From Deltaproteobacteria bacterium RBG_16_64_85 (GTDB lineage: Bacteria; Desulfobacterota; Deferrimicrobia; Deferrimicrobiales; Deferrimicrobiaceae): 35,345 bases of DNA. Under the pieces are notes generated by a model. The model saw only the letters and a program-made list of their open reading frames with translations, was not told where the DNA came from and did no database searches. The DNA is taken from contig MGQW01000073.1 in the NCBI GenBank assembly GCA_001798885.1, forward strand, positions 1 through 35,345, read 5' to 3'. The number at the start of each line of letters is the position of its first letter. Positions within the stretch are counted from its first letter, which is position 1. Shown in pieces: positions 3,962-35,255 of the stretch. Made by a program: the position numbers and the translations under genes.

Positions 3962-4031
3962 TTCATTGCCCCCTTTCGTGCGGTGGTTTTCTGCTGTCCG
4001 TCGGCTGGAACCCGAAACGTCCCGAAACTCT

Positions 4032-4081
4032 ATTTTGCATCAAGCCGTAATGTCGCGGTCAACATTTTTGATATGCAAAAA
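4032..4081 (-). promoter_or_regulatory. Candidate sod promoter with upstream palindrome
   Basis: On the minus strand TTGACC (4062-4057) is followed after 19 bases by CAAAAT (4037-4032), a long spacing that suggests activator dependence if this is the promoter. Directly upstream lies the perfect inverted repeat TTTTTG-N5-CAAAAA (4065-4081), a possible regulator site. The same A-run also serves as the T-run of the hairpin described at 4076-4103, so its role is ambiguous. Confidence 0.35.
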
Positions 4082-4103
4082 CCGGTCGGTTGCGGGAACC
4101 GGT
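4076..4103 (-). terminator. Possible second intrinsic terminator, ACCGGT hairpin plus T-run
   Basis: ACCGGT (4103-4098) and ACCGGT (4086-4081) can pair around an 11-base loop and are followed on the minus strand by TTTT. The stem is short. It would act as a back-up to the stronger terminator after the mucR-type gene and insulate sod. Confidence 0.3.
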
Positions 4104-4197
4104 CCCCGCCTACTAAATGAAGACCCGGGGCGGATCGTTTCAAACAATTTTTTTTCGTCCGGGGGACGAGCAAAATAACGGGGACGGTCCTGGCACC

Positions 4198-4233
4198 AAA
4201 AAAAGCCCGCGCGGAAGAACCTCCCGCGCGGGC
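4198..4233 (-). terminator. Rho-independent terminator of the MucR-family gene
   Basis: GCCCGCGCGG (4224-4233 read on minus) and its perfect partner (4205-4214) form a 10-bp all-GC stem with a 9-base loop, followed on the minus strand by seven T (4204-4198). It lies 25 bases after the stop codon of the upstream zinc-finger regulator gene. Confidence 0.85.
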
Positions 4234-4257
4234 CGGCATTCCCTGGATGCTTGAGGC

Positions 4258-4686
4258 TTACTTCTTTCCGCGCTTCTTTCGCCCTTCGGCAAGCTTTTCT
4301 GCCAGTCCGAGTTTCTGCGCGATCTTTTTCTTCGCCTCGGAGTAATTCCTGGCCACAAGCGGGGTCTTCGTGGGGATATTGAACTTCTTCCGATAATCCT
4401 TTGGTGTGAAGTCGTGGCTGATTGCCAGGTGCTTTTTCAGCGTCGTGAATCCCTTTCCGCACACCATACAATAAACCTTGTCGGCGCCGAACGCCTTGTT
4501 CAGAGGGACGGCAGGCTTTCCTTCGGCGGGGGCTGCCGCTTCCGCTCCCTCTACACCGGCAAGGGAAGAAAGCTTCGCAAATACCGCCTGGATTTCGTCG
4601 AGGAGATCTTCCCTGCTCATCTCATTTACGGAAGCGTGAGCCGAAACTATCTCCGCCGTCAATTCTATTACGACCTTCTTTTCCAT
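4258..4686 (-). CDS. MucR/Ros-family zinc-finger transcriptional regulator
   Basis: 142-residue DNA-binding protein. The N-terminal half (1-70) is helical and includes an Ala-rich linker. Residues 72-120 carry the Ros/MucR prokaryotic zinc finger: C and C in CMVCGKGFTTLKKH, followed by H in HLAISHDFTPKDYRKKF, then the family continuation FNIPTKTPLVARNYSEAKK. The C-terminus is strongly basic (GRKKRGKK). In the family such proteins repress or activate exopolysaccharide, motility and envelope genes, often with autoregulation. Here it is a single-gene unit with its own sigma-70-like promoter and a strong terminator. The targets in this genome are unknown. Confidence 0.9.
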   Translation of the reverse strand: MEKKVVIELTAEIVSAHASVNEMSREDLLDEIQAVFAKLSSLAGVEGAEAAAPAEGKPAVPLNKAFGADKVYCMVCGKGFTTLKKHLAISHDFTPKDYRKKFNIPTKTPLVARNYSEAKKKIAQKLGLAEKLAEGRKKRGKK

Positions 4687-4716
4687 AAATACCCCTCCCC
4701 TTATATAATGTTTTTT

Positions 4717-4745
4717 ATCATTTCAAAAGCATTCCGGAGTGTCAA
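4717..4745 (-). promoter_or_regulatory. Sigma-70 promoter of the MucR-family gene
   Basis: TTGACA (4745-4740), a 17-base spacer, then AATGAT (4722-4717), which has 4 of 6 consensus bases. The region is AT-rich in a GC-rich genome, and the start codon at 4686 is preceded by AAGGGGAGGGG. The -35 hexamer is a perfect consensus match. Confidence 0.7.
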
Positions 4746-4847
4746 TGCCGAAAAAATACATTGTTGCAAAAGAATCAGGAAGAATTTTATCCAACGATTA
4801 AAGACAACCAGAACCTATTTCGTTTTTTCATCTTGCTCTTTCTATTT

Positions 4848-5306
4848 CTACTGGAAAAAAAGCAATTTCCCTGCGCCGCGCCGGATCGTGTCGAGCCGGA
4901 TGCCGCAGACGGACCCTGCGCCGAACACCAGTCTCAAGGGATCTCCCGCGGAAAGGAGGGCGGATGCGATGAGCGCGATGGAGGGAAGATGCCCAACGCA
5001 CAGGATGTTTTCCCTTCCCCCTTGCTCCTCGATAAAGGCGAGGAACATCTCGGGGGTGGCGTCGGGGGATAACGCCTTCGTCTCCTCGATCCCGCCCGCC
5101 GGGTACCCTGCGGCGGCACAAAAGATCTCGGCTGTCTGGCGCGCGCGGAGCTTCCCGCTGGTGGCAACGAGGTCGAGGCGCCCGATCTTCCCCGAAAGGG
5201 CGGACGCCGCCGCAGAGAGCGATCGGATGCCGTCGGTGCTCAGCGGACGTGCGGGATCCACGCTTTTCGGCACCGCCTCTCCGTGTCGGACGAGCCAGAG
5301 GTCCAT
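4848..5306 (-). CDS. sixA: Phosphohistidine phosphatase SixA-like (histidine phosphatase superfamily)
   Basis: 152-residue cytoplasmic phosphatase. It starts MDLWLVRHGEA, with the RHG catalytic motif at residues 7-9 (nucleophile H8). The second catalytic histidine is in CVGHLPSIALIA, and the arginine-bearing RARQTAEIF segment matches the branch. SixA removes phosphate from histidines of phosphorelay or phosphotransferase proteins; the substrate here is not shown. Its ATG (5306-5304) overlaps the NUDIX stop by one base (TGATG), so translation is probably coupled. The same frame is open far upstream, but that part reads as shadow sequence of the NUDIX gene. Confidence 0.88.
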   Translation of the reverse strand: MDLWLVRHGEAVPKSVDPARPLSTDGIRSLSAAASALSGKIGRLDLVATSGKLRARQTAEIFCAAAGYPAGGIEETKALSPDATPEMFLAFIEEQGGRENILCVGHLPSIALIASALLSAGDPLRLVFGAGSVCGIRLDTIRRGAGKLLFFQ

Positions 5307-24234: not shown

Positions 24235-25494
24235 TTACGCCCCGGGGGCGGGCAGGCCTCCCGTCGTCTCTCCGTTCAACCCCTTCCCTTCCTCCCTCAT
24301 TTCCTTCCAGGGCGGCAGGATTTTCAGGAGGACGGCCAGGATGACCAGCGGCAGCAGGAGCAGAACGAAGGCGTAGAGGAGCCCCTCGAGCCCCCCGAAC
24401 TCCATCTTGTAGGTGGTAAGGCCTCGAAAGCTCTTCGAGAACATCTGTCCGCCGATGACCACGTTCCACCGCGTGGAGAAGATGCCGAACTGGATCAGGA
24501 GCACGGAGATGAAGTAGAACATCTTCCGCAGGTCCTCGTTCAGGGAGAACCGCTTCTTGAAGATCTTGGTGATGCTGATGATGCCCAGGGGCAGGAGCAT
24601 CCCGAGCATGACCTGGATGACGACCAGGCTCATGAAGAGCTTGCTCATGACCATCTCGGAGAGGATCTTGATCTCCTCCTCGCTCTGGTAGATGCGGTGG
24701 ATGAAGTCGACGAACTCGAGGGAGAAGTCGACGATGACGGCGTAGAAGAGGAAGTCGACCGCCTTGTCGACGCACTTCATGTTGATCTTTCCGCCGGTCA
24801 GGGGGGTGATGACCATATAGAAGAAGATGACGAGGGCGACCCCCGACACGATCGCGGAGAACAGGAACACGATCGGGATCAGCACGCTGCTCCACCAGGG
24901 GTTCGCCTTGACGGAGCCGAAGATGAACCCGACGTAGCCGTGCAGGAGGAACGCCGAGGGGATCCCGACGATGGTGATCGTCTTGAGCGCCTTGGAGTCG
25001 AAGGCCAGCGCCCCCTCGCTCTTGTCCGTGGAGAAGAGGGCGAGCCCCTTGTGGATCCACTTCATCGCGCCGGTCTCTCCTTCCGCCCAGTGGATCAGGT
25101 CCGTCCGGTAGACGAACCAGATCTCGAGCAACAGGACCGCCATGAGGTACCAGGCGTAAACGAACCCGAACATCGCCATCGCGGAAGAGGTCTGCGGGGT
25201 CAGGAAGATCTCGAAGCTCCGCTCGGGGTGGCCCAGGTGCGACAGCAGCGGCAGAGGCGCAACGAGCAGATACGACAGGGCCGTCAGGAGCGACAACCGG
25301 TAGAGCGGCTGGACCTCCTTGACGTTGAACACCTTCACGAGGGACGCCAGGATGAACGCCCCGGCCACGATGCCGGTGAGGTAGGGGTAGACCACGACCA
25401 GAATGCCCCAGTGGATTTCGATCTCGTTCGGGTAGATGAACCCCGTGATCTGGGGCAGGAGCTCGTACAGGGACTTATACAGTTCGTTGGTCAT
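24235..25494 (-). CDS. NrfD/PsrC-family membrane subunit (module 2)
   Basis: 419-residue polytopic inner-membrane protein of the NrfD/PsrC/DsrP type that exchanges electrons between the quinone pool and a periplasmic iron-sulfur partner. About nine to ten hydrophobic helices are visible, starting IEIHWGILVVVYPYLTGIVAGAFILAS across two pieces, with the typical PLPLLSHLGHPER loop and NPWWSSVLIPIVFLFSA. ATG 25494 overlaps the ferredoxin stop by four bases (ATGA), so both should be made together. It is the last gene before a strong terminator. The C-terminal tail (EEGKGLNGETTGGLPAPGA) is hydrophilic. No molybdopterin catalytic subunit accompanies it. Confidence 0.9.
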   Translation of the reverse strand: MTNELYKSLYELLPQITGFIYPNEIEIHWGILVVVYPYLTGIVAGAFILASLVKVFNVKEVQPLYRLSLLTALSYLLVAPLPLLSHLGHPERSFEIFLTPQTSSAMAMFGFVYAWYLMAVLLLEIWFVYRTDLIHWAEGETGAMKWIHKGLALFSTDKSEGALAFDSKALKTITIVGIPSAFLLHGYVGFIFGSVKANPWWSSVLIPIVFLFSAIVSGVALVIFFYMVITPLTGGKINMKCVDKAVDFLFYAVIVDFSLEFVDFIHRIYQSEEEIKILSEMVMSKLFMSLVVIQVMLGMLLPLGIISITKIFKKRFSLNEDLRKMFYFISVLLIQFGIFSTRWNVVIGGQMFSKSFRGLTTYKMEFGGLEGLLYAFVLLLLPLVILAVLLKILPPWKEMREEGKGLNGETTGGLPAPGA

Positions 25495-26240
25495 CGCACC
25501 TCTCCGTCCAGGCTCGCGTAGTAGACTTTCGGCTCCGTGTTGAGCCCCGGCTTGAGCACGTGGATCTTGTTCATCCGCCGGAACCGCGCCAGGGGGCTCG
25601 CCACGCTGTTCAGATCCCCGAAGATGCGGGCCTGGGTGGGGCACACCTCGACGCACGCCGGGAGCAGGTTCTGCGAGACCCGGTGGTAGCAGAAGGTGCA
25701 CTTGTCCGCGGTGTGGGTCCGGGGATGGAGGTACCGGGCCCCGTAGGGGCATGCCTGGATGCAGTACCGGCACCCGATGCACGTCTTGCTGTTGACGAGG
25801 ACGACCCCGTCATCGGTCTGGAACGTCGCCCCGACCGGGCAGACCTGGACGCAGGGCGGATCCGCGCACTGGTTGCACAGCTTCGGGACGAAGAAGCTTC
25901 GCAGGATCGACCGGTCCGCCGCGGAATCGGGCACTCCTTCCGGTTTCGTCTCGACCGTATTCACGATCGCATCGCCGTTTCGCTTGATGATGTATCGCTC
26001 CACCCAGGTCCGGGTGAAGAAGGGTTCCCTGGGGACGTCGGTTTCCGTCTTGCAGGCCTCGACGCACCGGGTGCAGCCGATGCACTTGTCCACGGAGACG
26101 CCGAAGCCGTACCACTTCCCTTTCCGCGGGGCCTCCTTCGCGAGCACCTTCGCGGGCAGGATCTGGAAGACTCCCCCGATCGCACTCCCGGAAACGAGGA
26201 ATGCGAGGACATCCCTCAGGAACTTTCGTCTGCTGTTCAC
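25491..26240 (-). CDS. Tat-exported four-cluster ferredoxin subunit, HybA/DsrO-like (module 2)
   Basis: 249-residue periplasmic electron-transfer protein. The Tat signal is NSRRKFLRDVLAFLVSG at the start. Sixteen cysteines in four groups should hold four [4Fe-4S] clusters: CIGCTRCVEAC, CNQCADPPCVQVCP, CIGCRYCIQACP and CTFCYHR with CVEVCP. This matches HybA, DmsB and DsrO types that pair with NrfD proteins. The start is GTG 26240, overlapping the cytochrome stop by four bases. It should sit between the octahaem cytochrome and the NrfD subunit on the outer face of the inner membrane. Confidence 0.93.
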   Translation of the reverse strand: MNSRRKFLRDVLAFLVSGSAIGGVFQILPAKVLAKEAPRKGKWYGFGVSVDKCIGCTRCVEACKTETDVPREPFFTRTWVERYIIKRNGDAIVNTVETKPEGVPDSAADRSILRSFFVPKLCNQCADPPCVQVCPVGATFQTDDGVVLVNSKTCIGCRYCIQACPYGARYLHPRTHTADKCTFCYHRVSQNLLPACVEVCPTQARIFGDLNSVASPLARFRRMNKIHVLKPGLNTEPKVYYASLDGEVR

Positions 26241-26995
26241 TCTTCCACCTCCGGCGAATGCGGATAATGACATTGCCAGCACACGTACTTCTCCCCGTGT
26301 GTGGACAGGTCGACCTTCGGCGCGTTCCTGGCCAACTTGTCCTTCGCGTCCTTGGCATGGCACTTCCCGCAGAACTCCCGGTTCTGCGGCTTCGTGGGCT
26401 TGACGCTCCGGGGCGAAATCTTGTGCTGCTGCAGCGCCTGGTGGCACACCGTGCACTCCAGCTGGACGTGGTGGGACACCGCCTTCGTCCGGGCGATCTC
26501 CCCGTGGCACGCCGAGCACTCCTTCGGGGTGGTCGGCGGCTTCGGGTCGTGCGGGTTGTGGCAGGCGGCGCAGGCCTTGAGCGGGTTGTGGGCCACCGGG
26601 TTGATCTGCGGGAAGCCCCTGGGACGCGACGGGTTGTAGGCGTGGCACAACGGGCAGAACGACCGCTCCTTCGGGATGGCCGGTTTGAACTTGTCGGGGT
26701 CCTGCGTGTGCGCCTTGGCGGGGCCGTGGCACGTTTCGCAGGAGAGATCCTTGTGGTATCCCGTCTTCTTCTTCTCGTAGATCTTGTCGTGGCACTCCGC
26801 GCAGGCGTGGAAGCCGGCGTACTGGACGGGCATGGCCTGCTCCCTCTTGACCGCGTCCGCCCACTGGATCTTCACGTCCTTCATGGGCTTGGGAATCAAC
26901 ACGATCACGACGAACGCCCCCACGAAGATCAATCCCAGGAAAACAACCAGCAGCCTCACCAGGGCGTCCGGCATTTTCGAAAGGAATTTTTTCAT
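26237..26995 (-). CDS. Membrane-anchored octahaem c-type cytochrome (module 2)
   Basis: 252-residue cytochrome with one N-terminal helix (LLVVFLGLIFVGAFVVIVLI, about residues 13-32) that likely stays as an anchor. Eight CxxCH haem sites follow: CAECH, CETCH, CPLCH, CAACH, CSACH, CTVCH, CGKCH and CWQCH. Extra histidines (HKD, HNP, HHV) could serve as distal ligands, giving mostly bis-His haems. The haem spacing differs from NrfH and NapC, and no family name is certain. Start ATG 26995 (MKKFLSKMPDALV) has GAGGAAG upstream. It is first gene of its transcription unit, which has its own promoter at 27128-27156. Confidence 0.92.
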   Translation of the reverse strand: MKKFLSKMPDALVRLLVVFLGLIFVGAFVVIVLIPKPMKDVKIQWADAVKREQAMPVQYAGFHACAECHDKIYEKKKTGYHKDLSCETCHGPAKAHTQDPDKFKPAIPKERSFCPLCHAYNPSRPRGFPQINPVAHNPLKACAACHNPHDPKPPTTPKECSACHGEIARTKAVSHHVQLECTVCHQALQQHKISPRSVKPTKPQNREFCGKCHAKDAKDKLARNAPKVDLSTHGEKYVCWQCHYPHSPEVEE

Positions 26996-27083
26996 TGCGC
27001 GTTCTTCCTCCTTGTGACCGTGAAAGAAAAAGGCGGACGTGACGGGATTTGCCCAGCCGCCCCCCCGCGGTTTTCGTGGGCCT

Positions 27084-27114
27084 GGCCAGCGGCCGGCATG
27101 GGCCGGCGCTGGCC
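27084..27114 (-). promoter_or_regulatory. Long GC-rich hairpin in the leader of module 2
   Basis: GGCCAGCG (27084-27091) pairs perfectly with CGCTGGCC (27107-27114), with an inner CCGG/CCGG stem. It lies between the promoter and the octahaem cytochrome start. There is no T-run on the minus side, so a leader structure, operator or transcript-stability element is more likely than a terminator. Confidence 0.45.
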
Positions 27115-27127
27115 GAAAATGCATCGA

Positions 27128-27156
27128 ATCTTACCCGGTAGCCCGGGGTCTGTCAA
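27128..27156 (-). promoter_or_regulatory. Sigma-70 promoter of module 2
   Basis: TTGACA (27156-27151), a 17-base spacer, then TAAGAT (27133-27128, 5 of 6 to consensus). It falls in the 208-base gap between the two cytochrome modules and would give an mRNA leader of about 125 bases holding the hairpin at 27084-27114. Confidence 0.75.
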
Positions 27157-27203
27157 CGAGAATGGATCCTGCCGGGAGCCGGCAGCCGGAGCGTGAAGCC
27201 GGC

Positions 27204-28502
27204 CTAAGCCTCCGCCTCGACCCCCGGCCCGCCGGAAACCCGTCCATGCCGTTGGACGATGAACCTCTGGTCCGCGATGACCGGCGTCACGCCGTCCTCC
27301 CCGACGTGGAAGTCGCCGTTCAGGATCGGAATCGCCACCCGCAGGAGCATGGTGTAGACGAAGAGCCCGGTCGCCCAGATCCCCATCGTCAACAGGAACT
27401 CGATCCCGGTGGGGGCATAGTCGTAGATTTCCCCCAGCACGTCGGGCGCCAGCCCCGGGATCACGAGCCCCATCCCCTTTTCGATGTAGACCCCGATGAA
27501 GATAAGGACGCACCCGATGTTCAGCGTCACGTAGTTTTCCCGGGTCTGCGGGATGAGGAAGAGCAGGAACGCGGTGACGTTGAAGAACATCGCCGTCCAG
27601 ATGTACGGGACCAGGGTGGTGTGCCCGTGGAGCCCCTGGAAGAGGTACTGCATCGGGGCCAGATGGATCGTGTCCGAATAGTATTCCTTGAACACTTCCG
27701 CGCCCAGCAGGAACAGGTTGAGGAACATCGAGTAGGCGATCAGCTCGGCGACCTTGAAGATCGCCTCGTCCTTGATTTCGGTCTTGGTGTATTTCCGGAT
27801 CACCTGGAAGAGCATGATCATGAAGGCCGGCCCGGAGCAGAACGCCGACGCCAGGAAGCGGGGCGCGAGGATCGAGGCGTTCCAGAAGGGACGGGCGCCC
27901 AGCCCGTTGTAAAGGAACGCCGTCACCGTGTGGATGGAGACGGCCGCCGGGATGGAGAACAGGATCAGCGGGACGGTAAACGACGGGTTCGGCTCCCGCC
28001 GGTGGTAGAGGTTGTAGAGGATGTAGACGGCGATCACGAGGTTCAGGACGAGGTAGAGGTTCAGCACCACCACGTCCCAGGCCAGGAGCGACTGGGGGAA
28101 GTTGAGGATCCCGATCTTCGGGATCAGGTGCCAGAACCGGTCGGGCCGCCCGATGTCGACCGTGACGAACAGGAGGCACATCACCATGGCGGAGACCGCC
28201 AGCATCTCGCCCAGGACCGCGATTTCCTTGATCGGCTTCCAGTGGTAGACGTAGGCGGGGATGACGAGCAGGACGGCGGCGGCCGCCACGCCGACCAGGA
28301 AGGTGAAGTTGGAAATGTAGAATCCCCAGGACACCTGGTCCCGCATCGCGGTGACGATCAGCCCGTTCTGGAGCTGGTACGCGTAGGCGACCGTGCCGAT
28401 CGCCATCATCGCCAGCAGGGAAAAGACCCAGGCGTAATACGCCACGCTCCCCTTGACCACGAGGACGAGCGTTCCCTTGAAGAATTCCCAGATCTTTTTC
28501 AT
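27204..28502 (-). CDS. NrfD/DsrP-family membrane subunit (module 1)
   Basis: 432-residue polytopic inner-membrane protein with about ten helices, of the DsrP/HmcC branch of the NrfD family. It shows VSWGFYISNFTFLVGVAAAA near residue 58, VDIGRPDRFWHLIP (the quinone-site GRPxR-like loop), HTVTAFLYNGLGARPFWNAS with a conserved histidine, and LGAEVFKEYYSDT. It should reduce or oxidise menaquinone and exchange electrons with the ferredoxin encoded just upstream, whose stop is 18 bases before this ATG. It is clearly diverged from the module 2 NrfD protein, so the pair is not a recent duplication. Confidence 0.91.
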   Translation of the reverse strand: MKKIWEFFKGTLVLVVKGSVAYYAWVFSLLAMMAIGTVAYAYQLQNGLIVTAMRDQVSWGFYISNFTFLVGVAAAAVLLVIPAYVYHWKPIKEIAVLGEMLAVSAMVMCLLFVTVDIGRPDRFWHLIPKIGILNFPQSLLAWDVVVLNLYLVLNLVIAVYILYNLYHRREPNPSFTVPLILFSIPAAVSIHTVTAFLYNGLGARPFWNASILAPRFLASAFCSGPAFMIMLFQVIRKYTKTEIKDEAIFKVAELIAYSMFLNLFLLGAEVFKEYYSDTIHLAPMQYLFQGLHGHTTLVPYIWTAMFFNVTAFLLFLIPQTRENYVTLNIGCVLIFIGVYIEKGMGLVIPGLAPDVLGEIYDYAPTGIEFLLTMGIWATGLFVYTMLLRVAIPILNGDFHVGEDGVTPVIADQRFIVQRHGRVSGGPGVEAEA

Positions 28503-28520
28503 CGTCCGCCCCCGCAGGTT

Positions 28521-29447
28521 TTACGTCGCGTAGAAGTAGTAGAACTTCGGCTGGGTGTTCAGGTCCTCCTTGAGGATGAACACCCGCTTGTTTTCGATGA
28601 TGTAGCGAACCTCGCTCTCCGGGTCGAGCAGGTTCCCGAACTTGCGGGCCCCCACCGGGCACACTTCGACGCACGCCGGGTATCGCCCCGCGCTCTCCCG
28701 GACGCGCTGGATGCAGAAGGTGCACTTCTCCACCACCCCGACGGGGCGGGGACGGTTCCCCAGGTAGTGCGTGTCCGGGTTGAGCTCGGCCGCCGGCAGC
28801 CCGGGCTTCTTCCAGTTGAAGTGCCGCGCGCCGTAGGGGCACGCCGCCATGCAGTAGCGGCAGCCGATGCACCAGTTGTAGTCCACCACGACGATCCCGT
28901 CGTTCTCCGTCCACGTCGCCTGGACCGGACATACCTTCGTGCACGGCGGGTTCTTGCACTGGTGGCATTGCACGGGCATATAGAAGTGCCCCGGCTCGGG
29001 GACCTTGGAGGGGTTGTAGTAATGCTCCGCCTCCTCCAGGAAGACCCCCTTCTCCTTTTTCATCCGGAGGACCCGGATCCAGTGGATCTGCGGCTCCCTG
29101 GACGGGTTGTTCTCCCCGACGCAGCCGTAGACGCAGCGGCGGCACCCGATGCAGCGCGAGAGGTCGAGGGCGTACCCGAACAGGACCCCCTCGATGGGAG
29201 GGGTCGCCTTTACCTTGACCGCCTTTCCGAACCGGGCGCTGTACTCTTTCTCCAGGCGGGCGAGGACCTTCTGCAGTTCCGTCTTGTCGAGCTCCCGGAA
29301 ATTCTTCTGGAAAAACGCCTCCCAGACGGAGGCGGACGCGTCCTTCCCGGGAAGAGCGAGGGCGCCCAAGCCCGCGGCCAGTCCCTTCAACGCCTTGCGG
29401 CGCGAGAGCCGGAAGGCGTTCCGGTCGCGCGTTTCCTTATCCGACAT
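28521..29447 (-). CDS. Tat-exported four-cluster ferredoxin subunit (module 1)
   Basis: 308-residue periplasmic iron-sulfur protein with Tat signal SRRKALKGLAAGLGALALPG. A helical insert of about 50 residues precedes the clusters, not seen in the module 2 partner. Cysteine groups: CIGCRRCVYGC, CHQCKNPPCTKVCP, CIGCRYCMAACP and CTFCIQRV with CVEVCP, fitting four [4Fe-4S] clusters as in HmcB, DsrO and related subunits. ATG 29447 has AGGAGAG upstream; the open frame extends further but covers the preceding cytochrome. It should connect the tetrahaem cytochrome and the NrfD protein. Confidence 0.93.
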   Translation of the reverse strand: MSDKETRDRNAFRLSRRKALKGLAAGLGALALPGKDASASVWEAFFQKNFRELDKTELQKVLARLEKEYSARFGKAVKVKATPPIEGVLFGYALDLSRCIGCRRCVYGCVGENNPSREPQIHWIRVLRMKKEKGVFLEEAEHYYNPSKVPEPGHFYMPVQCHQCKNPPCTKVCPVQATWTENDGIVVVDYNWCIGCRYCMAACPYGARHFNWKKPGLPAAELNPDTHYLGNRPRPVGVVEKCTFCIQRVRESAGRYPACVEVCPVGARKFGNLLDPESEVRYIIENKRVFILKEDLNTQPKFYYFYAT

Positions 29448-29479
29448 GACCTTCTCTCCTTGACAAACCAGGTTCACGC

Positions 29480-30028
29480 TCAGCGGATGCCTTCCGGGCG
29501 GACCGGCGGGGGCATCGGCTGGATCGGCTTGTACCTCGGGTCGTGCGGATTGTGGCAGTGGGCGCACAGGAGGTACTCCTTCTTCCCGTTCCACAGCCCG
29601 GTCCGCTTCCCGTGGACGCCCACCTTCCAGTCGCGGAACTTGTCCCCGTGGCACTGCCCGCACAGCCGGTACGACTCCGAGAAGTCGATCTTCTCGCCGG
29701 AGACCAGCCGGAGCTTGTCCCGGTTGGCGGTGTCGTGGCAGTCCAGGCACCAGCGCTGTCCCTGGGCGTGGTTCAGGACGATGCCGGTGTGCTCGTCCTT
29801 GAGGACCCTGCGGGTCGGGTTCGGCTTGATCTCCTTGTGGCACTCGGAGCAGGGGAAGATCCCCGGCGTAAACGGCGGCGGGGGAACAGGAAACTGCAAT
29901 GCTGCCGGCTCCTCATTCCGGGTCTTGCGCTCCTCCGTCTGGTGCACAGCCAGGGCTTGTGCGGAATAGAGGAGAAGAGCCGCCGTCCCCGCCAGGAGGA
30001 AAAGATAATACGGCCGTTGATTTTTCAT
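29480..30028 (-). CDS. Periplasmic tetrahaem c-type cytochrome (module 1)
   Basis: 182-residue cytochrome with a signal peptide or N-terminal anchor (YYLFLLAGTAALLLYSAQALA, read as two short runs, cleavage after ALA likely near residue 27). Four CxxCH sites: CSECH, CLDCH, CGQCH and CAHCH, with further histidines (HTGIVLNHAQ, HGKR) available as axial ligands. The arrangement CSECHKEI...CLDCHDTANRDKL resembles cytochromes found beside HybA/NrfD pairs in metal reducers and sulfate reducers. It is first gene of module 1, 73 bases after the rubrerythrin-like gene, and no clear promoter is seen in that gap. Confidence 0.91.
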   Translation of the reverse strand: MKNQRPYYLFLLAGTAALLLYSAQALAVHQTEERKTRNEEPAALQFPVPPPPFTPGIFPCSECHKEIKPNPTRRVLKDEHTGIVLNHAQGQRWCLDCHDTANRDKLRLVSGEKIDFSESYRLCGQCHGDKFRDWKVGVHGKRTGLWNGKKEYLLCAHCHNPHDPRYKPIQPMPPPVRPEGIR

Positions 30029-30101: not shown

Positions 30102-30614
30102 TTACTCCCCCATCCGGAGGCCGGTGGCCTCCAGGAAATCGAGATACTCGTAGATCACATCGAAATGCTTCGACTCCTCGCTCGAGAGGAGCTTGAAGAA
30201 CTTCCGTTCCTGGGGGTTCGTCGCCCCCTCGGCCATCCGCTTGTACATCTCGCGCCCCTCCGCCTCGAAGCCGAGGGCTTTCCGCATGGCGGCCGCCGCG
30301 TCCCCGGAAATCGTTTTCTCCTTCCGGATCCGCCGCGTTTCCCGCTCGAACATCTGCATCCTCGCCTCGCTGGAGGCGGTGGAGACCGCCGGGAACTTCC
30401 CCTCCTCCTCGAGCTTCCGGGAGATCACAAGGATGTCCTGTGCGTGCTTTTCCTCAAGGACGGCGAGAAGCTCGAACACCTGCCTCGCGAAAGCATCCGA
30501 ACTCTTGGCGGCGGCTGCGGCGAAAAACCGTTTCCCCTGTTTTTCGAACCGGAGCGCCCGGGTCAGGGCGCCGGAAGAGTTCTTTTTCCATTTCGAAGAC
30601 GCGGAATTCGCCAT
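30102..30614 (-). CDS. Rubrerythrin-like ferritin-fold diiron protein
   Basis: 170-residue four-helix protein of the ferritin-like superfamily. Two carboxylate-histidine pairs suit a diiron site: E in RFEKQGKRFF with EEKHAQD in the first half, and E in FEAEGREMYKRM with EESKHFD in the second, the usual rubrerythrin repeat. The C-terminal rubredoxin domain of classic rubrerythrins is absent. Family members reduce peroxide or handle iron; the electron donor here is unknown. ATG 30614 follows GGGGTGGAAGAGCG. It could be co-transcribed with the cytochrome module just downstream. Confidence 0.88.
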   Translation of the reverse strand: MANSASSKWKKNSSGALTRALRFEKQGKRFFAAAAAKSSDAFARQVFELLAVLEEKHAQDILVISRKLEEEGKFPAVSTASSEARMQMFERETRRIRKEKTISGDAAAAMRKALGFEAEGREMYKRMAEGATNPQERKFFKLLSSEESKHFDVIYEYLDFLEATGLRMGE

Positions 30615-30760
30615 CGCTCTTCCACCCCCCTCGAATTCAATAAACAGTCCTGATTATTATGCCCACGGTCCGTCCCCGTTTTCCACTCGAAAAAAAATCT
30701 ATTCTTTTTTCTTCGGTCGGGACCCGACGGGCGGGCCGGATCCCGTTTGCGATCATTTGT

Positions 30761-31618
30761 TTATCTCTTCTGCAGCTCACCTACGCCAATAAACGGTACC
30801 GCCCCGCCCCCTGTAACCTGGGGGAGTATCCCATTCCATTTATCTATGGCCTTGAGATTGGCCTCGATCTTTCTAAGCTCTATAAGGTCCGGTGAAATAT
30901 TCGCTCTCTGCAGCCTCAAGGATTCCGCCTCTGCCCTTGCTGCTGTAATCTTCTGCTCTGCCTCTATCTTTATTCTATCCAGGTCTCTCCTTGCCTTTAG
31001 TGCAAGCTGTTCTGCTGTCTGCTTTGACTCAATAGCCTCCGTAAATATTTTAGAGAAGCTGAAAGCGACAATAGAAACCGCATCAACTGCTATATTATTA
31101 GGCATAAGTCTTTCAGCAAGGTTTGCTCTCATTGCCTCGCTTACTGCTGCTCTCTTTGTTATAAGCTCTTCTGCTGAATACCTGGCTGACACAGCTTTCA
31201 TTACCTCTTGTATTGCAGGGTCTATAATACGCTCCTTGAAGTGTATCCCAATGGTTTGATAGACAACATTTGCCTTATCAGGTATGACATGATAGTTAAG
31301 CGCAACCGATGAAGTCACATCCTGAAGATCAGCTGAGGCTGATGTGGCATCAGTTACTGCCTTTTGAACCTTGACATCCATTATGGCAACCCTCTGCATT
31401 ACAGGTATCCTGAAATGCAGCCCTTCTCCAAACACATTCTCCTGAACAGCACCAAAATTAAGGACAACCCCTCTTTCACCTGCCCCAATCTGAACCCATG
31501 GCTTCAAGAACATGAAAAAGGCCAGGATTGCTACAATGATCAGCGCCTTCCTCGCAGGTCCTTTCTTCATCGCAGACAGCATCGTCTCACTTGCACTGTA
31601 AACATTTCTTTCATCCAT
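30761..31618 (-). CDS. Prohibitin/SPFH-domain membrane protein on an AT-rich island
   Basis: 285-residue protein with one N-terminal membrane helix (ALIIVAILAFFMFLKPWV, about residues 22-40), an SPFH/band 7 domain (about 45-210: GERGVVLNFGAVQENVFGEG, VMDVKVQK-like segment, VALNYHVIPDKAN, IIDPAIQEVMKAVSARYSAEEL), then a coiled coil (about 210-260) and a short tail. Prohibitins form large ring scaffolds that regulate membrane proteases such as FtsH. Start ATG 31618 (MDERNVYSASE) follows GAGGGGGTAGGG; a longer in-frame start lacks support. Base composition is far lower in GC than all neighbours and uses ATA, AGA and TTA codons, so recent transfer is likely. Confidence 0.9.
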   Translation of the reverse strand: MDERNVYSASETMLSAMKKGPARKALIIVAILAFFMFLKPWVQIGAGERGVVLNFGAVQENVFGEGLHFRIPVMQRVAIMDVKVQKAVTDATSASADLQDVTSSVALNYHVIPDKANVVYQTIGIHFKERIIDPAIQEVMKAVSARYSAEELITKRAAVSEAMRANLAERLMPNNIAVDAVSIVAFSFSKIFTEAIESKQTAEQLALKARRDLDRIKIEAEQKITAARAEAESLRLQRANISPDLIELRKIEANLKAIDKWNGILPQVTGGGAVPFIGVGELQKR

Positions 31619-31800
31619 CCCTACCCCCTCATTGAAGGAAGTTTGTTTTTTCGCTGCCCAGTCGGTAGGGTCCTTCACTCCTCCCGGCCGTTGTGTTTCG
31701 GGGGCCGGATCGACCTGCCCGACATCACCGACCCCGCCACACCTAACGCTGCTGCTTCCGACGGCCTTTCGCCGTCAGTATACTCAAATGGGATGGGAAT
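31619..31800. other. Junction between AT-rich island and transposase scrap
   Basis: No gene is supported here. GC content jumps from low to normal around 31650-31680. A perfect hairpin GACGGC-CTTTC-GCCGTC lies at 31760-31776. The region is likely debris from insertion or rearrangement. Confidence 0.4.
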
Positions 31801-31973
31801 CAACAGGACGCTGGCCTGGAAGAGGTCCCGCAGGATGACGGTATCGAAGACGGGGGAGTGGACGAAACTCCCGTCCGTCCGGAAGACCCCCGCGGGAGCA
31901 AGGACGTGCAGGTGGGGATGCCAGCCGAGGAACTCCCCGGCGGTCTGGATGGAGACGATGGCGACGGGAAGAT
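31801..31973 (-). pseudogene. Fragment of IS91-type (Y2) transposase
   Basis: Reading 31973 towards 31801 on the minus strand gives PVAIVSIQTAGEF, then LGWHPHLHVLAPAGVFRTDG and ILRDLFQASVL. This is the HPHLH metal-binding block and flanks of the IS91-family Y2 transposase, usually in the middle of a 350-400 residue protein. There is a stop just upstream, and after FQASVL the sequence no longer fits the family, so only about 57 codons remain. It lies between the AT-rich prohibitin gene and typA. Confidence 0.75.
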
Positions 31974-32011
31974 GCCCTTCTTAGGCTCGACTTTACCAAC
32001 CCCTTTTGACC

Positions 32012-33826
32012 TTAAATAGCCGGCTCTTTTTTCCTGGGACGGCGATTGGCCTCCAGGACCTTCTTCCGGAGACGCAGCGAGGACGGCGTCACCTCGGCCA
32101 GCTCGTCCTCGTTGATGAACTCGAGCGCGCCCTCCAGCGACAGGATCCTCGGCGGGACCAGGCGAAGCGCCTCGTCGGCGCCGGCCGCGCGGATGTTGGT
32201 GAGCTTCTTCTCCTTCGTTACATTGATGTCGATGTCCACGGGACGGGAGTTCTCCCCGACGATCATCCCTTCGTAGACCTGCGTCCCTTCCCCGATGAAG
32301 AAGGCGCCGCGGGACTGGAGATGGAAGATCGCGTAGGCGGTCGCCCGGCCTGACCGGTCGGCCACCAGCGCCCCGTTGATCCTCTCCGGGATCGGGCCCT
32401 GCCACGGCTCGTACCCGTCGAAAAGATGGTTGAGCAGCCCCGTCCCGCGCGTCTCCGTGAGGAACTCCGAGCGGAACCCGATGAGCCCCCGCGACGGAAT
32501 CCGGTATTCGAGGCGCACCCGCCCATGCCCGGGATTGACCATCTTCGTCATCTTCGCCTTGCGGGCCCCCAGGCGTTGAGTCACCGTTCCCAGGTAGGCC
32601 TCGGGGATATCGACGAACAGCATCTCCACCGGCTCCTTGAGCACTCCGTTCCCGGTTTTCGTGACCACCTCGGGGCGGGAAACCGACAACTCGAATCCTT
32701 CGCGGCGCATCATCTCGATGAGGATCGCCAGCTGCAGCTCCCCGCGACCCATCACGGTGAATGCGTCGGTCCCGGAGAAGTCGATCCGGAGCGCCACGTT
32801 GGCGAGTAGTTCCTTCGCAAGTCGCTCCCGAAGCTGCCGTGAGGTGACGTATTTCCCCTCTCTCCCGGCGACCGGAGAGGTATTGATCGAGAAGACCATC
32901 GACACCGTCGGCTCGTCGACCGCGATCCGCGGCAGGGGGCGCGGCGCCATCGCGTCGGAAACCGTGTCCCCGATGGTGATCAGCGGAGCTCCTGCGACGG
33001 CCACGATCTCTCCCGCTCCGGCTTCCGGGATCTCCTCCCGGGAAAGCCCTTCGTAGCCGTAGAGGAGCGCGACCTTGACGCGCTCCATCGCCCCGTCCTT
33101 TCCGCAAATGGACACGGCCTCCCCGGCGCGGAGGGTCCCGGAGAAAACCCTCCCCACGGCCAGCCGACCGATGTAGTCGCTGTAGTCCAGGCTCGTCACC
33201 AGGAACTGCAGGGGGGCGGAAGGATCCCCGGACGGAGGCGGTACGTGGGTGAGGATCCGGTCGAACAGAGGGCGGAGGTCTCTCCCCTCCCCGCCGTCTT
33301 TCTCCCGTGCCGTCCCCGCGCGGGCGTTCGTCAGGAGGATCGGGAATTCCAGCTGCTCCTCCGCCGCGTCCAGGTCGATGAACAGGTCGTAGACCTCGCT
33401 GATCACCTCGTCGATCCGGGCGTCCGGACGGTCGATCTTGTTGACGACCAGGATCACCGGGAGTGCCTGTTCCAGCGCCTTCGAAAGGACGAAGCGGGTC
33501 TGGGGGAGCGGCCCCTCGGAAGCGTCCACCAGCAGGAGCACCCCGTCGACCATCTTCAGGGTGCGCTCCACCTCCCCGCCGAAATCGGCGTGGCCCGGGG
33601 TGTCCACGATGTTGATCTTCACCCCCCGGTAGACCACGGCGGTGTTCTTCGCCAGGATCGTGATCCCCTTCTCCCGCTCCAGGTCGGTCGAGTCCATCAC
33701 GCGATCGGGAACGGCCTGATGTTCGCGGAAGACGCCGCTCTGTTTGAGCATCGCGTCGACCAGCGTGGTCTTGCCGTGGTCCACGTGGGCGATGATCGCC
33801 ACGTTGCGGATGTCGGAGGGTCGCAT
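32012..33826 (-). CDS. typA: Ribosome-associated GTPase TypA/BipA
   Basis: 604-residue translational GTPase, normal family length. GTP-binding motifs are clear: G1 [10 protein letters not shown]2 region around EKGITI, G3 DTPGHADF and G4 NKID. Domains II, III and V follow, and the TypA-specific C-terminal domain includes [18 protein letters not shown], split as [11 protein letters not shown] and [11 protein letters not shown]. BipA assists ribosome assembly and stress or low-temperature growth. ATG 33826 ([20 protein letters not shown]) is 13 bases after the SLOG-like gene stop, so the two are probably one operon. The in-frame extension further upstream overlaps that gene and is not coding. 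Confidence 0.96.
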
Positions 33827-34494: not shown

Positions 34495-34839
34495 TTAGGC
34501 GAAGTCGAACAGGTATTCGGTTGCAGAACCGCCGGCACGCTTCGCATAGAGAGCGATTCTCTTCGCAACGAGCCGAAAGTTATCCGGGGGGACCGTCCAA
34601 GGCAGGATCAGGACCCCGGCGTGGGGCAGGCCCTTCTCGAAGAACTCCCGCGTTAGTAGGATGAAGTCGTTCCGGTTGCGGGTGACCAGGCAACGGTCCT
34701 CTACCGCCGCAAGTTCCAACTGCTCCCGGTCGGACAACCCTTGCCTTCCCGACTCGTGCACGCTGGTCGCATCCACTCCCAAGGACCTGAGGATGACGGC
34801 GACTTCGGGGGCGATGTCCTCGTCGAGGCAAATCTTCAC
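34495..34839 (-). CDS. DUF5615-type PIN-like toxin
   Basis: 114-residue PIN-like nuclease of the DUF5615/Mut7-C type. Acidic motifs: LDEDIAP at residues 5-11 and TRNRNDF near 53-59, with GLSDREQLELAA between, as is usual for this toxin group; they would coordinate metal for RNA cleavage. The start is GTG 34839, overlapping the antitoxin stop by four bases (GTGA), the normal antitoxin-first order. By family, it should be held inactive by the upstream DUF433 protein. No evidence on its RNA target. Confidence 0.87.
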   Translation of the reverse strand: MKICLDEDIAPEVAVILRSLGVDATSVHESGRQGLSDREQLELAAVEDRCLVTRNRNDFILLTREFFEKGLPHAGVLILPWTVPPDNFRLVAKRIALYAKRAGGSATEYLFDFA

Positions 34840-35255
34840 CGGGGGGACCTGCGGACGAAGGGGAGTCTTTCCCGGACGATATTTTCGTCCATGTCCCTGT
34901 TCGCGTCGACGAGATCTTCCATCTCCTTGGGGTAGGCACGGTAGTATCCCAAAGCGGCCAGCAACTGCCTGTCGGAGAGCCAGGCATACGCCTTTTTAAG
35001 CCGCTTCTCGTCCTTTCCCAGCGCGAGGTAGGAGGCGATCACCTCCCAGACTTCGATCCCCGTTCCTTCGATTCTCGCCCTGCGGCCCGAAGGGCCGTCG
35101 GCGAATACGACCCCGGGGCACCGCCGCATCTTCGCCGCTTCGGCGATAAGCTCCGAAGCCAGGGAAGAGAAGGTCGCCCGCCGCCCGCGCCGCAGTTGCT
35201 CAATATCCCGGGCCGTTGCGTCGTTGATGCGCACGCTCTTTACGGAAGTCTTCAT
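34836..35255 (-). CDS. DUF433-type antitoxin with N-terminal DNA-binding arm
   Basis: 139-residue antitoxin. Residues 1-45 (TSVKSVRINDATARDIEQL, FSSLASELIAEA) resemble a ribbon-helix-helix or similar DNA-binding arm. Residues 50-115 contain the DUF433 core (RIEGTGIEVWEVIASYLALG, SDRQLLAALGYYRAYPKE), and the tail MDENIVRERLPF probably wraps the toxin. Such proteins bind their own promoter. A strong promoter with palindromes lies just upstream, fitting autoregulation. ATG 35255 follows GAGGTGG. Confidence 0.87.
   Translation of the reverse strand: MKTSVKSVRINDATARDIEQLRRGRRATFSSLASELIAEAAKMRRCPGVVFADGPSGRRARIEGTGIEVWEVIASYLALGKDEKRLKKAYAWLSDRQLLAALGYYRAYPKEMEDLVDANRDMDENIVRERLPFVRRSPR

Follow-up and report, generated by a model that had tools for sequence, protein, structure and literature searches.

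A low-GC prohibitin gene, very likely of Nitrospirota-like origin, at the oriIS end of an IS91-like element in a GC-rich Desulfobacterota genome

The DNA analysed here (the window) is a whole contig of 35,345 nucleotides from the assembly of Deltaproteobacteria bacterium RBG_16_64_85 (2.2 Mb, 96 contigs, 99% complete). It carries a prohibitin-type gene of low GC content, very likely acquired by horizontal transfer from a Nitrospirota-like donor richer in AT. Directly before its start codon lies the oriIS end of an IS91-like element, and the account in which we place considerable confidence is that a horizontally gained, Nitrospirota-type prohibitin gene became joined to this end and spread with it as a unit. 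The features concerned are as follows, G004 being a genome of another genus in the same family.

30102-30614, minus strand: rubrerythrin/ferritin-like gene, right neighbour of the insert
30703-30720: right copy of an imperfect 18-nt direct repeat, bracketing the insert with the left copy
30761-31618, minus strand: prohibitin-type SPFH gene, 285 aa, likely start ATG at 31618, stop at 30761
30932-31400, minus strand: central part of the prohibitin gene, which clusters with Nitrospirota alleles rather than with G004 and may be a recombined block
31619-31633, minus strand: junction of the IS end with the ATG, containing GAGGGGG at 31630-31624; last 12 nt the same in G004
31634-31809, minus strand: 3′ (oriIS-type) end of an IS91-like element, with further copies elsewhere in the family
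31678-31980, minus strand: open frame containing a fragment of IS91-family transposase (Y2_Tnp; profile match at 31858-31959)
31777-31803, minus strand: promoter-like TTGATT-15-TATACT inside the IS end, found by eye and absent from the consensus scan output
32012-33796, minus strand: typA (the portion that served as query), left neighbour of the insert
32025-32042: left copy of the imperfect 18-nt repeat, within the typA 3′ end

Composition and identity of the gene

A 500-base profile gave 0.60-0.66 GC up to position 30750, 0.44-0.46 at 30751-31500 and 0.58-0.65 from 31501 onward. The sequence-only reading had judged by eye that GC falls sharply across this one gene (about 40-45% against above 60%) and returns to normal on both sides, and the profile confirms this observation. 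The ORF as listed (30761-31678, minus strand) has a GC of 0.463 and a GC3 of 0.451, and flank GC in the fetched loci was 0.645-0.653. In 185 kb of the same genome (the window and ten other stretches, GC 0.636), overlapping 900-base segments averaged 0.637 (sd 0.039, n = 1756) and only three fell below 0.47; of nine start points below 0.50, seven were over the prohibitin gene and two in another stretch (L149). Codon usage follows the same pattern, as had also been claimed. The prohibitin codons resemble a low-GC Nitrospirota background with a mean log ratio of +0.61 per codon, the median for 49 low-GC Nitrospirota ORFs being 0.56 and the maximum among 126 called genes of the genome itself being -0.02, a control biased towards typical genes because the gene caller retained only high-GC3 ORFs. 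A milder dip in GC (0.50-0.54) was seen at 4001-5000, over a 142-aa ORF (4258-4686, minus strand) and the region upstream of it.

The low-GC prohibitin ORF is real, with the single amendment that its listed start at GTG 31678 is probably wrong. Judged by the sequence, ATG 31618 is the likelier start, being preceded by GAGGGGG and in agreement with the starts of relatives, and the 20 codons from GTG 31678 to ATG 31618 are an IS-derived leader. The call of a prohibitin was borne out. A Band_7/SPFH domain was found (PF01145, 110.8 bits, cut-off 23.6, E 9.9e-32), and among solved structures (PDB) searched by sequence, prohibitins were matched at E 3e-34 and HflC at E 3e-5. HflC/HflK belong to the same superfamily and HflC gives weak matches, but the protein scored only 38.2 bits against a cut-off of 134.4 for the HflC equivalog TIGR01932 (NCBIfam). 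An AlphaFold2 model built from 32 sequences has modest confidence values (pLDDT 69.5, pTM 0.42), with helices predicted at residues 21-37 and 190-239, and Foldseek ranked human PHB1/2 chains first for it (TM-score about 0.43, E 1.4e-14). Both sequence and fold thus place the protein nearer to prohibitins than to HflK/C or stomatin. It resembles the SPFH4 prohibitins and the PHB1/PHB2 complex in its Band_7 domain and its best matches, and differs from PHB1/PHB2 in being a single bacterial gene whose modest model reaches TM-scores of about 0.43. Family membership suggests a prohibitin-type membrane scaffold function. The dN/dS value against the relative L032 is 0.149, implying that the gene is under purifying selection now or was until recently.

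Phylogeny and native prohibitins of the family

In a 100-row protein tree, the window prohibitin is sister to the gene of Nitrospiraceae MAG UBA2194 (support 99/88, 89% identity) and is surrounded mostly by Nitrospirota rows. This tree omits two fragments (L021, L022), duplicates, and hits shorter than 170 aa or lacking tblastn support at 1e-5; for related stretches, the best 80 of 252 were kept. The closest relatives are Nitrospirota genes with 86-89% protein identity. Thirteen other prohibitins of the family fall in two separate groups of 5 and 8 rows. The family's own prohibitins are 55-65% identical to the window gene and have a GC3 of 0.88-0.99, with the one exception of G018 (0.65), whose flanks are likewise at 0.50 GC. 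That a vertically inherited gene has been held AT-rich by selection is scarcely credible: we found nothing in its support, and it is contradicted by the phylogeny at 100-row sampling, by the high GC3 of all but one of the family copies and by the empty site described below. Horizontal gain, which the sequence-only reading had proposed from composition and the adjoining transposase debris, is backed by a tree nested in the donor group, donor-like composition and a locus that is empty in relatives. What that reading had named as evidence against it, a vertical phylogeny with equally low GC in relatives, was not observed.

Native-type prohibitins were counted in 15 of 24 family genomes (the window's included in the 24), two of them (G009, G011) by fragments only. 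Nitrospirota-type copies were found in three, namely the window's genome (G000), G004 and G010, and six had no prohibitin or weak SPFH hits only, several of these being incomplete assemblies (61-97%). No genome among the 24 was seen to carry both types. A search with a native-type query found no native copy in G000, G001, G004, G010 or G015, which form one typA subclade (93/91) with foreign-type copies in three of its five members; the typA tree covers 20 of the 24 genomes, G008, G019, G022 and G023 having partial or paralogous typA matches. Since no native prohibitin was found in this subclade, the newcomer likely takes over that role, which would be that of a prohibitin-HflK/C-type protein forming a ring or cage at the inner membrane. 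The copy in G010 (G010:C65:32396-33259, L136) is foreign-type, 77% identical, has a GC3 of 0.84 and no IS91 leader, and pairs with a Smithella MAG in the protein tree.

The insertion site

In each of the 16 other family genomes that gave both a typA match and a rubrerythrin-like match of at least 64% identity, a gap of 46-423 bp separates the two on a single contig; four of these loci were aligned. The gap in the window genome is 1.4 kb. The earlier reading had suggested looking for target-site duplications: an imperfect 18-nt direct repeat, its two copies 83% identical, brackets the insert. Next to the right copy, 30699-30722 (minus strand) reads SRPKKKE-stop, resembling the ends of typA in relatives (ARRPKRKE in G001), so that the insertion may have interrupted typA at its extreme 3′ end. 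Alignment of the right flank scored above all 200 shuffles for G001 and G011, and not for G010 and G015. IS91 elements insert at a fixed tetranucleotide and are not known to duplicate their target, and an 18-nt duplication would be atypical of them. Downstream of the rubrerythrin-like gene is a multihaem cytochrome, iron-sulphur and NrfD-type gene cluster (25491-30028, minus strand), the order of which is common to G001, G010 and G015.

The IS91-like end and its junction with the gene

The transposase debris noted beside the gene is real, and proved to be more than debris. The Y2_Tnp match (23.3 bits, cut-off 20.9) covers positions 3-36 of 183 and stops short of the catalytic tyrosines, so the Y2 (HUH) transposase of IS91 elements is represented by a fragment only, the 5′ part of its gene being absent here. 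It is accompanied by an oriIS-type end with an oriIS-like AAACTTCCT at 31644-31636 (minus strand), and the matched end stops 15 nt before the prohibitin ATG. The IS end AAACTTCCTAT, also AAACTTCCT(AT), resembles the ISCR1 oriIS GTGGTTTATACTTCCTATACCC as given in an excerpt of PMC13023784. This end was matched at E 0.01 in 16 of 24 family genomes, many of the matches being weak or partial, and its motif is held by 9 of 12 loci examined, the window included. At two loci (L157, L158) an ISCR1-like end follows the C-terminus of an IS91-type transposase, which is the IS91 arrangement of oriIS downstream of the transposase gene; Y2_Tnp was above cut-off in L157 and just below it in L158. The DNA behind eight other located ends in the family has a GC of 0.57-0.66, and low-GC cargo is therefore not the rule. 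Copies of the end are scattered in family genomes (L156, L157, L158, L159, L160, L161, L144), most without an intact adjoining transposase, and two adjoin tRNA-Pro.

The same end precedes the prohibitin of G004, which is 79% identical to that of the window. No match to nine other window genes, including typA and the rubrerythrin-like gene, was found in its 16-kb stretch. A model built without G004 recovered the G004 end in two pieces separated by a 68-position gap (E 3.2e-7 and 0.017), and the genome-wide search gave E 1.4e-5. Of the 54 nt before the ATG, 46 are the same in the two genomes, including all of the last 12. This junction pattern was found in 2/24 genomes of the family and 2/395 of the phylum, the same two in each case. 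As the junction recurs at a different locus, the joint is older than either copy, and since it formed the unit has relocated or passed between hosts at least once.

Other explanations of the region were rejected. A structured RNA or riboswitch leader at 31619-31804 gave no Rfam match at gathering scores and only chance-level matches in a permissive search, the fold z-score was -1.47, and the repeat copies are not consistently upstream of genes; the region is the IS91 end. A tRNA island was dropped. A tRNA-3′-like string is visible by eye after the G004 prohibitin and two repeat copies lie beside tRNA-Pro, but an ARAGORN scan for tRNAs in the G004 locus was negative. Carriage by plasmid or phage was discarded as well, all matching plasmid records (548/548) and phage records (247/247) among those searched being below 60% identity; one scan of viral contigs returned four loci at 24-44% identity.

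Origin and spread of the joined unit

In the history that we favour, an intact Nitrospirota-type prohibitin gene would have been acquired horizontally by a GC-rich lineage and fused to the oriIS end of a rolling-circle element of IS91 type, the unit later reaching two or more chromosomal loci across two genera. In the window genome it sits between the 3′ end of typA and the rubrerythrin-like gene, and the element has decayed there to a transposase scrap and an oriIS end directly before the prohibitin start. A likely but less certain step is the replacement of the gene centre by another Nitrospirota allele. The IS end probably supplies the leader and a candidate promoter, TTGATT-15-TATACT, although a consensus promoter scan reported four other sites (0.9 expected) and not this one. 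Involvement of IS91 in the movement of the gene is likely, and we infer rolling-circle transposition as the vehicle, expression from the IS-borne promoter and a scaffold role for the newcomer. Several points count against this account: no intact IS91 unit with a prohibitin was found, the eight other located IS ends have no low-GC cargo behind them, the promoter pair is missing from the scan output, the foreign-type copy of G010 is without the junction and groups with a Smithella MAG, the nearest rows to the window at both gene ends are Nitrospirota and not G004, and an 18-nt duplication would be atypical of IS91.

A rather unlikely alternative is that the gene was gained by ordinary recombination of taken-up DNA and that the IS91-like element arrived upstream later, with no part in the transfer. 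This would suit a decayed element known from a transposase scrap and an oriIS-type end alone, and family IS ends that elsewhere have no low-GC neighbour; however, the shared junction at another locus in G004 indicates that the joint preceded the spread. A Nitrospirota read stretch joined to the contig by misassembly or contamination is very improbable. The assembly is in 96 contigs, but family gene order is kept on both flanks, the insert bears a family-type IS end that also precedes the G004 gene, and no row exceeds about 92.5% identity to the gene centre. Transfer together with the IS91-like end remains the reading that we prefer. Less likely than not is a wider proposal, in which the subclade lost its native prohibitin and refilled the slot at least twice with foreign ones, one of them travelling as a cassette whose IS91 oriIS end became its promoter and whose centre is repeatedly exchanged with other alleles. 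If true, this would be a mobile, recombining housekeeping membrane-scaffold gene.

A possible mosaic

The affinities of the gene differ along its length. At both ends the nearest row to G004 is the window, but the nearest rows to the window are Nitrospirota (0.853 and 0.887; G004 reaches 0.821 and 0.875). In the centre, the window and G004 separate. Rows with N or hits spanning fewer than 220 residues were excluded from this comparison. Segment trees used 30 rows chosen by closeness, with breakpoints picked on the same data as the trees tested. For the centre, the window lies in a ten-row Nitrospirota clade (100/100), and the data reject a clade of window and G004 (lnL difference 97.9). For the ends, the best tree lacks that clade but the data do not reject it (p = 0.38), and they do reject placing the window with the L032 group (p = 0.027); the Nitrospirota centre-allele clade, tested on the ends without the window and G004, is not rejected (p = 0.15). 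Informative sites match G004 in 4/79 cases inside the block and 29/62 outside it, which was reached by 0/200 shuffles with the leader included. With coding sites alone it was reached by 3, 160 and 14 of 1000 shuffles for three reference trios, and by 61 of 1000 when G010 replaced G004.

Taken together, these comparisons suggest that the gene may be a mosaic, its centre (about 31400-30932) coming from another allele than its ends, with moderate support that is weakened by some controls. Of five Nitrospirota control rows, L035 and L045 themselves contain stronger blocks (0 of 1000 shuffles), and L034, L033 and L036 weaker ones (19, 33 and 188 of 1000). Recombination as such is likely, and the chance that the mosaic was made in this lineage is about even. 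Somewhat short of even is the chance that it stems from the donor or from exchange among Nitrospirota prohibitins, the gene having arrived as it is, or that G004 is the recombinant. The blocks in L035 and L045 point that way, as do the weak coding-only results in two of the three trios (160 and 14 of 1000). Against this, the contrast in GC3 between ends and centre is 0.162 in the window and at most 0.121 among 23 relatives, and window and G004 have the junction and the ends in common but centres in different clades. Mosaic-like blocks were observed in the Nitrospirota prohibitins L033, L034, L035 and L045, the strongest being that of L035 at 31478-31381 (window numbering).

Relation to known systems

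Lateral transfer of prokaryotic prohibitins (SPFH4) has already been reported, their patchy spread in bacteria having been deduced from trees and distribution (excerpts of PMC2636767), and the present case is therefore a further example with unusually clear anatomy. Like IS91/ISCR elements, the remnant has a Y2_Tnp scrap and an ISCR1-like oriIS (excerpt of PMC13023784), and as in ISCR1 the cargo lies directly on the oriIS side, where the region corresponding to the oriIS end drives downstream genes (excerpt of PMC6218425). It differs in that the element is decayed and the cargo is a prohibitin, not a resistance gene. We found no paper describing a prohibitin as IS91 cargo in the literature searched. 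Prohibitin transfer and IS91/ISCR mobilisation are both known, and this is a new, well-resolved example. An IS91 oriIS end before the start codon offers a concrete vehicle for the patchy lateral spread of bacterial prohibitins and an instance of IS91-type cargo outside antibiotic resistance, and the path of transfer is traceable because the junction is common to two loci. Towards the end of the window, beyond typA, two minus-strand ORFs (34495-34839 and 34836-35255) encode a DUF5615 (PIN-like) and DUF433 pair that is toxin-antitoxin-like, the DUF5615 protein being present in 1/24 family genomes, the window's own.
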